Assembly (NCBI RefSeq): GCF_005144965.1 | Contig: NZ_CP039704.1 | Span: 434,001-498,000, forward strand | Direction of reading: 5' to 3' | Length of the DNA: 64,000 bases | DNA from: Hankyongella ginsenosidimutans | GTDB taxonomy: Bacteria; Pseudomonadota; Alphaproteobacteria; Sphingomonadales; Sphingomonadaceae | Part shown: positions 41,598 through 59,793 of the stretch, piece after piece | How positions within the stretch are numbered: the first letter of the stretch is position 1 | Layout: every line of letters begins with the position of its first letter | The notes under the pieces: model-generated | What the model saw: the letters and a program-made list of their open reading frames with translations, nothing else | Told to the model about the DNA's origin: nothing | Database searches by the model: none | Translations under genes and position numbers: made by a program

Positions 41598-42650
41598 TCA
41601 GGCAAACAGCTTGCCCCAGGCGCGCTTCTGGCGGGTGCGCCAGTGCCCGCGATGGTAGGCGTCCGACGCCAGCAGCGGCATCACCGAACCGGCCTCCGCG
41701 AACACCATCTGCTCAAGCGCGGTGTCGACCTTGCCCCAGCTTGCCGCCTCCTTCAGGGTCGACGACGAGCATGCGCCGTCGCGCACATCGGCGACCGTGA
41801 TCTGCACGGCGTACTTGTGCATTTCGACATCCTCGTGGCCGAGGATTTCGGCGCACACCACGGTGTCCTGGATGAAGTTCTTCGGCACGCCGCCACCGAT
41901 CATCAGCAGGCCGGTCGTGCCCGCCTTGATCTTGATCTCGGTCAGCTCGCGGAAATCGGCGATCGCGTCCAGCATCATGTACGGCTTGCCCTCCTTGGCG
42001 CGGTCGACCTGATGCTTGACCAGACCGAAACCCGCCGAGGAGTCGACAAAGGCCGGGCAGAAAATCGGCACGTCATGCTCGTAGGCGAGCTTGACCAGGC
42101 TGTTGTCCTTCTTGCCGTGCTGGCTCAGGTACTTGCCCATCTCGCGGATGAAGGCGCGGCTGGAGTAGCCCTTGGGATCGAGGCTGTTGGCGATCTCGTA
42201 GATCGTGTGGTCGCAGGCCTGAAGCTGCTCTTCGTCGATGTAGGTGTCGTAGATGCGGTCGATGTACAGCGAGCGCAGCGTATTGTCGTCCGGGATTTCC
42301 AGCGCCTGATAGTGCTTGAAGCCCAGCCCTTCGAAGAAATCCATGTCGACGATCGAGGCGCCGGTCGCGACCACGCCGTCGATCATGTTCGAGCGCAGCA
42401 GCTCGGCATAGAGGTCCATGCAGCCGCCGGCGCTGGTCGAACCGGCGATCACCAGGAAGATCGAGCAATCCGGATCGGCCAGCATCTGGTTGTAGATGCT
42501 GGTCGCCCGCGCCAGATCGCGCGAGGTGAACGACATGTTGGCCATCTGGTCGATGATCGGGCGCGCATCGAAGCTTTTGATGTCGATGTGCTGGACGGTC
42601 TTGGACAGCAGTTCCTGCTTCCGGCTGTCGTTGAGGAGGGCGTTGGTCAT
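41598..42650 (-). CDS. Deoxyhypusine synthase-like protein (possible homospermidine synthase)
   Basis: Intact, 350 residues. The NAD-binding fold has SIFLVIAGSTSAGGCMDLYA, IGGGVPKNFIQDT and DGVVATGASIVDMDFFEGLG. Lys307 in EAASWGKV matches the catalytic lysine that carries the aminobutyl group in deoxyhypusine synthase. Bacteria lack eIF5A, so the bacterial relatives are thought to move an aminobutyl group onto putrescine or another amine. It lies downstream of an ornithine-decarboxylase-like gene on the same strand, which supports a polyamine role. Confidence 0.85.
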   Translation of the reverse strand: MTNALLNDSRKQELLSKTVQHIDIKSFDARPIIDQMANMSFTSRDLARATSIYNQMLADPDCSIFLVIAGSTSAGGCMDLYAELLRSNMIDGVVATGASIVDMDFFEGLGFKHYQALEIPDDNTLRSLYIDRIYDTYIDEEQLQACDHTIYEIANSLDPKGYSSRAFIREMGKYLSQHGKKDNSLVKLAYEHDVPIFCPAFVDSSAGFGLVKHQVDRAKEGKPYMMLDAIADFRELTEIKIKAGTTGLLMIGGGVPKNFIQDTVVCAEILGHEDVEMHKYAVQITVADVRDGACSSSTLKEAASWGKVDTALEQMVFAEAGSVMPLLASDAYHRGHWRTRQKRAWGKLFA

Positions 42651-42811: not shown

Positions 42812-43998
42812 TCAGCGCGCTTCGCTGACCAGGGTAACGATGTTGTGTGACGGTTGTGCGTCAGCATAGGCCGAGGCCATCGGCGCATCGTCGGCAATCG
42901 CCGTCAGATCCGACTGGAAGCCGTTGAAATCGGTGCGCATGGCCGCGCCGTACGCGCCCAGCATGCCGATCTCGACATAGTCCCCGGCTGGACGTCCGCC
43001 GGCAGCTCGAACGGCCCGCGCATGAAGTCCATGTCGTCGCAGGTCGGCCCGTAGAAGCTGAACGGGACCGGCTTCACCGAGGAATCGCGCAGCAGCCGAA
43101 CCGGAAAGCGCCAGTCCACATGGGCGGCATCGAACAGCGAGCCGTAGGCGCCGTCGTTGATGTAGAGCACATCGCCGCGCCGGCGCTCGACACGCACGAC
43201 GACGGAGGCGTACTCCGCGCACAACGCCCGGCCCGGTTCGCACCAGAGTTCCGCCGAGTAGGAGATCGGCAGCGCCTCGAAGTGCGTCTTGATGACCTGG
43301 AAATAGCTGGCCATGTCCGGCGGGGTCATGCCGGGATAGATCGACGGGAAACCACCGCCGACATCCACCACGTCCACAGTGACGCCGGCCTGCACGATTG
43401 CCGCGCGCACCAGCGCCATGGCGTCCGCATAGGCCTGCGGACTCATGGCCTGGCTGCCGACGTGGAAGCAGACGCCGAGCGCATCCGCAGCCTGACGGGC
43501 CGCCATGAGCAACGGTGCAGAATCTTCGACCGACACGCCAAACTTGGACGCCAGCGACAGTTTCGAGTGCCCGGACGATACCCGTAGCCGTACGCACAGG
43601 GTGAGATCGGTCGCCCCGTTGGTGGCGGCGACGATCTTGGCCAGTTCCTCGTGGCTGTCGAGGCTGAAGGTGCGAACGCCATGCTCGAAATAGGCTTCCG
43701 CAATGGCTTCCGGCGCTTTGACCGGATGCATGAAGCACAGCGTCGCCTGCGGCGCGTTCGCACGCACCAGGCGCACCTCCTTCAGCGAGGCAACATCGAA
43801 GTGCGTGATTCCGCTTTCCCAGAGCAGACGGATCAACTCGGGCGACGGATTCGACTTGACGGCGTACAGCGCCGTGCCTGGAAATTTCTCGACGAAATAC
43901 CGGGCGGCGCGGCGTGCCGCGTGCGGTCGGAGCAGGGTGACAGGTTGCGCAGGCCGGACTTCGGCCGCTAACCCCAGCGCGCTATGGTAGTGACGCAT
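42812..43998 (-). CDS. Type III PLP-dependent decarboxylase (ornithine decarboxylase-like)
   Basis: About 395 residues, alanine-racemase-like fold type III. PLP Lys is in TALYAVKSNPSPELI. Further motifs are FDVASLKEVRLV, SLDSHEELAKIV, KLSLASKFGVSVED, FHVGSQAMSP, VVDVGGGFPSIYPG, the phosphate-binding ELWCEPGRALCAEY and, for the second subunit, FYGPTCDDMDFM with the active-site Cys. The frame changes near 42985 and then reads YVEIGMLGAYGAAMRTDFNG. It should make putrescine from ornithine, although lysine use cannot be excluded. GGAGG lies 9 bases before ATG 43998. A structured leader precedes it. Confidence 0.9.
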
Positions 43999-44043
43999 CT
44001 CATGGGACCTCCAGAGCATTGTTGACACAAGCGAGGAGAAAGC

Positions 44044-44114
44044 CTTGAGGCGACGGGTTTACATCCCCTGAGCGGAGACACATCACCGAAGTCGCTTGGG
44101 GCTAACGCCTCAAG
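44044..44114 (-). promoter_or_regulatory. Structured 5' leader of the ornithine decarboxylase gene (speF-like?)
   Basis: On the minus strand CTTGAGGCG (44106-44114) and CGCCTCAAG (44044-44052) form a perfect 9-base closing stem. Inside it, CCCC-AAGCG and CGCTCA-GGGG can form a second stem around a GACTTCGGTGATG loop. It lies 46-116 bases before the start codon. An RNA motif named speF is known upstream of ornithine decarboxylase genes in alphaproteobacteria; I infer, but cannot confirm, that this is a member. Confidence 0.5.
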
Positions 44115-44299
44115 CTGCCTTGCGGTGGAAGTCCCATGGGGCAGCAGCGCCGTAATTATGAGTCGTGCCGGGGCCTGTAAAGCATTTTTGTGTGAATTTT
44201 CGTTAACGCCCTGTTCGCGCAGCGCGATCAAGCGCCTGGGGCGCAGGTTTATCGCACATGCGGCCTTGCCAGCCGGCGCGGAGCCGTTAACGGCTTTAG
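44115..44299. other. Divergent intergenic region
   Basis: The gap between the decarboxylase leader and the dehydratase gene, with promoters expected on both strands. An AT-richer patch (AAAGCATTTTTGTGTGAATT, 44179-44198) is the likely promoter area. No further gene is seen. Confidence 0.4.
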
Positions 44300-45287
44300 A
44301 TGCTTACCCACCTGCTTACGGACGATCCGGCGGTCCGGCTTGACGATGTGCAAGCCGCCGCCGGTCGTTTGCAGGTACGCCATCCGACCCCACTGCTGCG
44401 CAGCGATGCGCTTGATGCGCTGACCGGTGCCCGCGTCTTCTTGAAGCCCGAATGCCTGCAGCGCACCGGCTCGTTCAAATTCCGCGGCGCCTACAACCGG
44501 CTGAGCCAGTTGACGCCGGAGGAACGCCGCGCTGGCGTGGTCGCCTTTTCCTCCGGCAATCACGCGCAAGGCGTGGCGCTGGCGGCGCGGCTGCTGGACC
44601 TGCCGACGATGATCGTCATGCCATCCGATGCGCCGACCCTCAAGATCGAGGGCACGCGCGCGCTTGGCGCTGCGGTTGTTCTCTATGACCGCGCGACTGA
44701 AAGCCGGGAGGAGATCGCCGGCCGGCTGGCGGCCGAACGCGGTGCGGTCCTGGTGCCGTCCTTCGACGATCCGGCGATCATCGCCGGGCAAGGCACGGCC
44801 GGACTGGAAATCGCCCAGGACCTGCAGGCGCTCGGCATCACGCCCGACCATTATCTCTGCTGCCTGGGCGGCGGCGGCCGGCGGCACATCGCTCGCCCTG
44901 AGGGCGCATTTCCCTGCGCTGCACGTCACGACAGTCGAGCCTGAACATTATGACGACGGGGCGCGCTCGCTGGCGGCCGGCATCCGCGTTGGCATCGACG
45001 GCTATGCGCCGACCGTGTGCGACGCGCTCCAGACCCCGAAGATCGGGGCGCTGACCTTCCTGCTGCTGCAGGCCGCTGGCGCGACTGGCGTGTGGGTTTC
45101 GGATGCAGAGGCGCTCGCTGCGGTGCGGTTCGCAGCAACCGAACTCAAACTGGTGCTGGAGCCTGGCGGCGCGGTCGCGCTTGCCGCACTTCTGGCGGGC
45201 AAAGTGCCAGTCGCCGGACGGACCGCCATCGTCATGCTGTCTGGCGGCAACATCGATCCCGCCCTGCTGGCGCGTGCGCTGGGCTGA
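44300..45287 (+). CDS. Threonine/serine dehydratase-like PLP enzyme
   Basis: About 329 residues, fold type II. PLP Lys is in RTGSFKFRGAYNRL; then come VVAFSSGNHAQGVALAAR, the glycine loop CCLGGGG and, near the end, VIVMLSGGNID-like sequence. The frame changes at the G run near 44880 and continues TSLALRAHFPALHVTTVEPE. It lacks the regulatory domain of biosynthetic IlvA, so a catabolic threonine dehydratase or serine racemase-like role fits the length. It has no obvious operon partner. Confidence 0.87.
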
Positions 45288-59583: not shown

Positions 59584-59643
59584 GAAGACACCCCGGTTCG
59601 CGCGCCGTGACCGCGCGCTGTTTCGACACGCGATCCGACATCA

Positions 59644-59661
59644 CGCAGGCAAGCGCCTGCG
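59644..59661. repeat. Perfect hairpin upstream of terC
   Basis: CGCAGGC and GCCTGCG pair around AAGC, 61-78 bases before the terC start codon. Its role is unknown; it could belong to a structured leader. Confidence 0.5.
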
Positions 59662-59793
59662 CCAGAGGGGCCCGGATCAGGCGAGATGTAGGGTGCGAAA
59701 TGCCCTCGTCAATCCGAAATGGGAAATGTGCAGCAGGTCAGTTTGAATTTGGAGTGGGGATTTAGAGTCAGCCGGGATTTACGAGCACGGCTA

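Follow-up and report, generated by a model that had tools for sequence, protein, structure and literature searches.

A probable odc1 leader with an overlapping upstream reading frame precedes a decarboxylase gene of Hankyongella ginsenosidimutans

The odc1 motif (uORF-25-1) has been described from 272 alphaproteobacterial examples situated upstream of ornithine decarboxylase genes (Brewer et al. 2021, RNA Biol, PMC8632094). In the odc1 section of that paper, the ribosome-binding site lies in a stem, a pseudoknot links the loop with the 5' end, two UUG codons stand two nt apart, and there is an 11-residue upstream open reading frame (uORF). According to the same section, the copy of Sphingomonas echinoides has its starts at 75-77 and 80-82, and E. 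coli reporters showed use of both, with the uORF favored about 3-fold. Expression of the main ORF was lost upon each of three mutations of conserved bases close to the pseudoknot, two of which barely affected the uORF. Brewer et al. there offer an off/on model, with reporters in E. coli, as a possibility. We found no other paper on odc1 in bacteria in the open-access PMC literature, and term counts were all zero in the available text of three motif surveys (PMC2864571, PMC6429828, PMC11109978). For speF, an RNA other than odc1, passages of PMC7717549 and PMC11477304 state that no binding of metabolites of this pathway was observed.

We analyzed a 64,000-nt stretch of the H. ginsenosidimutans genome (NZ_CP039704.1, positions 434,001 to 498,000; hereafter the window). 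A structured cis-regulatory leader, suspected in a sequence-only reading, does precede a pair of decarboxylase and deoxyhypusine-synthase-like genes, and two of its helices are kept in relatives. We consider it probable that this leader belongs to the odc1 motif and acts in cis to control decarboxylase translation through masking of the Shine-Dalgarno sequence and choice of start. The relevant features, in window coordinates, are:

44176..44181, minus strand: -35-like hexamer TTTACA, from motif spacing in 107 leaders
44160-44153, minus strand: -10-like CATAATTA, from sequence
44140..44145, minus strand: helix A, 5' strand GCUGCC, pairing with 44119-44114
44127..44138, minus strand: helix B, 5' strand (anti-Shine-Dalgarno), 12 bp with 44012-44001; conserved core GGGACUUCC at 44135-44127
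44114..44119, minus strand: helix A, 3' strand GGCAGC, from the alignment; base 44114, at its end, also begins the previously noticed 9-bp stem
44044..44114, minus strand: the noticed inverted repeat of 71 nt, which is specific to this genome and inserted in the linker, from family search, shuffles and folding
44013..44113, minus strand: linker between helix A and the Shine-Dalgarno sequence, 101 nt, from comparison with 107 leaders
44001..44012, minus strand: helix B, 3' strand, comprising the Shine-Dalgarno sequence GGAGGUCCC (44012-44004) and the uORF start AUG, from the anchor pattern
43968..44003, minus strand: overlapping uORF, AUG to UAG, 11 codons, MRCVTTIARWG, from translation; same length in 151/153 leaders
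42812..43998, minus strand: PLP-dependent decarboxylase (PF02784 and PF00278), main ORF from AUG 43998, from Pfam and structure matches
41598..42650, minus strand: deoxyhypusine-synthase-like gene (PF01916; NF002699 above cut-off), from Pfam and NCBIfam

We assigned the leader by the published text description of odc1 (PMC8632094). Like the RNA described there, the window leader lies directly upstream of an ornithine-decarboxylase-like gene in an alphaproteobacterium. Its ribosome-binding site occupies the right shoulder of the main stem (44138-44127 with 44012-44001, pairing by sequence), its 5' end can make a pseudoknot with the stem loop (44145-44140 with 44119-44114, also pairing by sequence), and it has two starts two nt apart and an 11-residue uORF. 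However, the window copy differs from odc1 as described by its 101-nt linker, and UUG/UUG, a consensus though not a defining trait, is replaced by AUG/AUG, as in relative L192. The names also differ: in PMC8632094, the Shine-Dalgarno stem is P1 and the GCUGCC helix is the pseudoknot. In 82-nt leaders (e.g. L057), counted from one base before CCGCUGCC, the starts fall at 75-77 and 80-82 as in the S. echinoides copy, an agreement that is suggestive only.

Decarboxylase relatives came from 59 related genomes (30 loci taken) and from named GTDB contigs (best 80 of 536); among these best 80, relatives with a named genus or family are sphingomonads, e.g. Polymorphobacter, Sphingomonas, Sphingosinicella, and Stakelama. 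The resulting 110 leaders, less two duplicates and one short leader, gave 107 for counts. Of 60 non-redundant representatives, 57 were aligned; L010, L051, and L064 were omitted for their long linkers. The conserved leader runs from about 44148 to the start codon and is interrupted in the window by the 101-nt linker. The pattern GG[AG]GGTCCC, which was used as the anchor, is present in 110/110 leaders. They share an upstream hairpin whose consensus is CCGCUGCCCCAUGGG(G)ACUUCCAACCGCAAGGCAGC; a few leaders (e.g. L013, L026, L029) have diverged forms of it. Linkers measure 16-44 nt in 101/107 leaders and 84-86 nt in five; that of the window, at 101 nt, is unique among 298 family genomes. The 84-86-nt linkers (L010, L051, L053, L059, L064) are alike by eye and unlike that of the window; L051 is named Sandarakinorhabdus.

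In the loop of helix A, GGGACUUCC pairs with the Shine-Dalgarno sequence GGAGGUCCC to give the core of helix B (44135-44127 with 44012-44004), and because CAUG faces CAUG in the window, helix B reaches 12 bp there. A match of at least 12 bp to the Shine-Dalgarno/start region (44138-44127 with 44012-44001) arose in only 4/2000 shuffles of the window leader. Since the 5' strand of helix B lies within the loop of helix A, the two helices can, as judged from their sequences, form an H-type pseudoknot that occupies the Shine-Dalgarno sequence and hides the ribosome-binding site. Calculated duplex energies are –20.8 kcal/mol for the 12 bp of helix B, –15.5 for its 9-bp core, and –10.0 for Shine-Dalgarno:16S pairing, so masking is stronger than ribosome pairing. 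In a nested fold of the window leader, helix B has probabilities of 0.25-0.91 and helix A only 0.09, because nested folding cannot score pseudoknots.

Comparison of the 57 distinct leaders supports both helices (conservation counts ignore kinship). Together, helices A and B have 98.9% of cells paired: 99.7% for helix A, where two pairs changed on both sides, and 98.4% for the 9-bp core of helix B. In total, 3 pairs (4 cells) changed on both sides versus a shuffled mean of 0.4, and slid controls gave 0-2 such pairs with 35-59% of cells paired; 6/15 helix pairs never vary and are uninformative. Diverged forms of helix A are still paired: GCAGCC/GGCUGC in L201 and L207, UUGCCGA/UCGGCAA in L180 and L181, and a 10-bp GUUGCCGCGC/GCGCGGUGAC, G-U pairs included, in L206. 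In a swap control of helix A with 24 diverged leaders, the longest stem averaged 6.33 bp versus 5.77 bp after swapping (maximum 6.25 of 200), a modest contrast because the scan chose off-target stems or wrong anti-Shine-Dalgarno sites (rows including L192, L194-L197, L199, L205, L208-L210, L213, and L006) and because the consensus is common to many rows. Several leaders depart from the common form. L208 (genome G453) kept the 11-codon uORF and the Shine-Dalgarno sequence GGGGGTCCC and matches our covariance model R1 at E 7e-4, but has no recognizable anti-Shine-Dalgarno hairpin, a feature present in L206 of the same genus; L199 has a poor anti-Shine-Dalgarno match. Leaders L202, L204, L206, and L211 have an apparent extra hairpin, by eye, between helix A and the anti-Shine-Dalgarno strand.

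Several loop bases are invariant or close to it across the 57 leaders, while outer pairs of helix A vary. This pattern favors a metabolite riboswitch in which a polyamine or a precursor would bind the loop bases CCAU and ACCGCAA and stabilize the pseudoknot, with the uORF secondary. A riboswitch was proposed by Brewer et al. as one possibility, although the odc1 section of their paper contains no binding data (PMC8632094). Each genome checked has a single good copy, preceding a single pathway gene, which also suits a riboswitch. However, the fixed uORF stop is then left unexplained, and the loop bases differ in the version found in a second family (both described below). We regard a riboswitch of this kind as a serious candidate with somewhat less than an even chance of being correct.

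Transcription probably starts near 44148, upstream of the leader element, judging from the spacing of putative promoter hexamers. Taking as reference the first base of the leader fragment, which lies about 3 nt before helix A, we found TTTACR/TTGCRD 34-36 nt farther upstream in 83/107 leaders, and the stricter TTTACA-N13..20-YWTA in 60/107. The start position is deduced in this way because a consensus promoter scan of this part of the window gave no sigma-70 site. A start near 44148 would lie upstream of the noticed element; the sequence-only reading had named a start downstream of 44044 as refuting it.

The element noticed in that reading was the 71-nt inverted repeat. Its arms, CTTGAGGCG (44114-44106) and CGCCTCAAG (44052-44044) on the minus strand, do form a perfect 9-bp repeat spanning 71 nt and ending 46 nt before the decarboxylase ATG at 43998, as had been claimed. 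Such a stem is only mildly unusual: when the 205-nt leader was shuffled with dinucleotides preserved, 14/300 sequences contained a Watson-Crick stem of 9 bp. Folding stability is unremarkable for the 81 nt surrounding the stem (z –1.33; 19/200 shuffles fold as well) but unusually high for the 203-nt leader (z –2.61; 3/200 shuffles as good). In isolation, the 71 nt fold preferentially into a different structure (–25.3 versus –24.3 kcal/mol when the 9-bp stem is imposed; pair probabilities 0.2-0.55), and a nested fold of the entire leader gives the 9-bp stem a probability of 0.0. The suggested inner CCCC/GGGG pairing forms when the 9-bp stem is enforced but is absent from the other folds computed. 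Searched against 298 family genomes, the 87 nt around the stem match five: the window's own genome along the full length and four others over short stretches (E 5e-4 to 4e-3). The 9-bp stem is thus real in sequence but lacks comparative support.

The claim that this stem is itself the regulatory element did not hold, since it sits between the two halves of the real element and is whole in 0 other of 298 family genomes. It is better described as a private insert within the odc1 leader. Alignment of relatives' leaders, which had been suggested as a check, revealed changes on both sides of pairs in helices A and B, while the stretch around the 71-nt stem is matched in four relatives over short parts only. 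Neither an Rfam match nor covariation was found for the 71-nt element as originally drawn; in the leader as a whole, paired changes were found. A speF-type polyamine riboswitch made of the 71-nt stem would fit the perfect 9-bp stem and the location before a decarboxylase gene. However, speF model RF00518 does not match there, the insert is private to this genome, and the stem is not preferred in folding; we consider this reading next to impossible. Overall, the original observation is partly confirmed and its first interpretation partly supported.

The two starts, AUG 44003 of the uORF and AUG 43998 of the decarboxylase, are two nt apart and share one ribosome-binding site. For uORF counts, 166 decarboxylase loci yielded 153 distinct leaders (L141 and L212 are without the anchor; 11 are duplicates). 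UUG/UUG is found in 149/153 leaders and AUG/AUG in the window and L192; one leader has GUG/UUG, and in L035 the second start is shifted. An AUG at just one of the two starts occurs in 0/153 leaders. Together with the second-family pairs, this suggests that the strengths of the two starts stay matched, although few cases are available. Weak UUG starts in 149/153 leaders, together with a very stable Shine-Dalgarno helix, could also mean constitutive damping, i.e. a hairpin that merely keeps translation low and senses nothing. Such a device needs neither near-invariant unpaired loop bases nor a selected uORF stop, and we consider it unlikely.

The uORF overlaps the decarboxylase gene in another frame and stops about 28 nt inside it. 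It has exactly 11 codons in 151/153 distinct leaders; L035 has 10, and L194 has no stop at codon 12. The stop is also lost, by eye, in L212, and the leaders of both L194 and L212 are degraded. Two other views of the uORF were dropped. A chance origin of the 11-codon ORF at 44003 is at odds with the 11-residue uORF in the odc1 description (PMC8632094), and a uORF beginning at an AUG inside the loop would not be held in frame, as the loop length varies and some relatives have AAG there.

Codon tests were done on 106 leaders (L035 was excluded for its shifted second start) and the Kullback-Leibler (KL) test on 59. Random synonymous recoding with the genes' own codon usage produced a stop at that place in only 835/21200 trials (3.9%); hence the stop is not a by-product of the decarboxylase sequence. 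It requires NTA-G in the main frame, and main codon 10 is CTA, TTA, or GTA in 105/106 genes (Leu 71/72, Val 34/34). The lone exception, CTG in L022, yields UGA at the same place. In the rest of the genes, 1.1% of Leu codons are CTA or TTA and 3.1% of Val codons are GTA (0.7% and 9.5%, respectively, in codons 2-26). Among the first 27 codons, codon 10 is the most biased (KL 5.2-6.1 bits); smaller values mean little, because codons 11-27 reach 2.5 bits. Where main codon 9 encodes Gly, it is GGG in 47/48 genes versus 9% background, and Gly therefore stays the last uORF residue. Third-position entropy is 0.08-0.58 in codons 5-10 and 0.81-1.95 from codon 11 on; in codons 7-9, first and second positions are of low entropy too, so protein conservation contributes there. 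The last uORF residue is Gly in 116/151 leaders, and L, P, S, R, Q, or V in the other 35. A simple substitution count gave no clear peptide constraint on the uORF, but we dropped the reading of no constraint, as the codon-usage test and the third-position entropies reveal constraint at the C-terminal end and the stop. Taken together, the sequence comparisons strongly indicate selection on the uORF stop. The odc1 section of PMC8632094 contains no codon test of this stop.

These data bear on uORF termination control, in which a ribosome would pause at the stop of the 11-codon uORF and cover the shared start region, with the polyamine level setting the pause. The extreme bias at the stop codon, the retention of a terminal Gly by GGG, and third positions that hardly vary in codons 5-10 but do so freely from codon 11 onward all argue for it. 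Its weaker side is that the peptide end varies by clade, with 35/151 ending in a residue other than Gly, that codons 11-27 are also biased, so only the strongest values count, that the substitution count shows no clear peptide constraint, and that the second-family uORF has six codons by eye. Termination control is a credible explanation, though the balance of probability leans against it. Ligand binding and uORF termination could also act together.

The covariance model R1 finds the element in 212/296 genomes of the order, 211 in the window's family and one outside (G047). Among the genomes listed, only G290 and G293 of the family are without a match; 64 further non-matches are unnamed, and their entries follow those of other families. 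In G290, the decarboxylase is present and the leader degraded, and G293 has no decarboxylase match at E ≤ 1e-60. odc1 is an orphan control element carried by nearly all sampled genomes of one family (211 versus the 2 listed without it). In the window's own genome, the sole good R1 matches are the two halves of the window leader, split by the long linker. The decarboxylase adjoins 32/33 R1 loci examined (30 in other genomes and the two halves in its own), the exception being an own-genome match with E = 6.9. Second R1 matches in five family genomes are weak (E 0.006-0.054) and lie on other contigs or far away. Over 337 genomes of the class, R1 gave 13 matches at E ≤ 0.05, five of them in the window's family. 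The other eight are weak (E 0.007-0.036), and we took them as chance, as 0/7 loci examined are near this decarboxylase.

Among 12 decarboxylase upstream regions from the same order outside the family, only L126 looks alike by eye, and R1 matches it on the Shine-Dalgarno side without reaching helix A. Decarboxylase matches at E ≤ 1e-40 occur in 6/32 genomes of a second family within the order. Two of these, G227 and G047 (leaders L180 and L181), share a diverged hairpin, a Shine-Dalgarno sequence GGAGGUC(C/U)C, and two AUGs, and have different linkers. Their loop bases differ from those above, and by eye the first AUG opens a 6-codon ORF. Nothing alike was seen by eye upstream of the remaining decarboxylases of the six. 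The second-family version is a natural variant for dissecting which parts are essential.

In our preferred and probable reading, the 5' end of the transcript can fold into the H-type pseudoknot, helix A closing a loop, part of which pairs with the Shine-Dalgarno sequence. With the pseudoknot formed, ribosomes would be excluded (the off state). Once helix B opens, initiation would be divided between the decarboxylase and the uORF, the latter being either idle or inhibitory. A signal of polyamine state might shift the folding, the choice of start, or ribosome dwell at the uORF stop. The window linker, some 60-85 nt longer than usual and with a possible hairpin of its own, should not block the pseudoknot. 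A bolder reading, advanced tentatively and with the odds against it, is that odc1 is a start-choice device. Its selected output would be the uORF termination site (a stop at codon 12, mostly preceded by Gly, held in spite of the codon usage of the main gene) with matched starts; polyamine-slowed termination would block the shared start and so provide feedback, while the pseudoknot would set ribosome entry. As the comparative data mark the uORF stop, beyond the RNA fold, as selected, the riboswitch candidate becomes a question of termination or start choice.

The genes downstream are in line with polyamine control, a link that the sequence-only reading had judged plausible from the gene pair and that we also consider plausible. 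Among solved structures, the best sequence matches of the decarboxylase are lysine/ornithine decarboxylases; we infer its substrate from these, because no NCBIfam equivalog reaches its cut-off. NF002699, found in the second gene, is named 1,9-bis(guanidino)-5-aza-nonane synthase, and a relative of this gene lies downstream of the decarboxylase in 59/69 loci with about 2 kb of downstream sequence. The decarboxylase frame shifts near 42980, towards the C-terminal end, where a relative's protein matches frame –3 and then –2. The assembly is one contig with a listed completeness of 86.7% and contamination of 6.5%, and an assembly indel is possible as the cause. The window copy may not be functional, because its linker is far longer than normal and the decarboxylase frame is broken in the assembly. 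Elsewhere in the window (59626-59683, minus strand), there is a terC RNA motif (RF03067; 59.3 bits, over the gathering score).

Among known RNAs, speF resembles the window leader in being a leader before a decarboxylase gene in alphaproteobacteria, and the sequence-only reading had named it. However, RF00518 gave no match at the leader in the window, in the search of its own genome (five weak matches elsewhere, best E 0.06), or at 11 relatives' loci. Searching Rfam with 43900-44300 at E ≤ 10 likewise yielded nothing except a single miRNA model on the opposite strand, and the odc1 leader was matched by no Rfam 15 model in these searches. The four best RF00518 matches among 142 genomes of the class (L116-L119; three over the cut-off and the fourth just under) lie upstream of decarboxylases 29-31% identical to that of the window, and their sequence looks unrelated. 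With RF00518 not reaching the gathering score at the leader and so distant a gene at its best matches, we rejected speF membership. In E. coli, SpeFL is a separate short ORF upstream of speF that acts by ribosome arrest. A short ORF precedes the decarboxylase in both cases, but that of the window shares the ribosome-binding site and overlaps the gene. The spermidine riboswitch, a SAM-I variant, is likewise an RNA linked to polyamine genes, which it represses; as described in the relevant part of PMC10853860, it has a SAM-I fold and acts by transcription termination, while the window leader has no Rfam SAM-I match. Compared with these systems, the odc1 motif is the one to which the window leader most probably belongs and was known already; new here are the selection on the uORF stop, the AUG/AUG pair in the window and one relative, and the diverged version in a second family.
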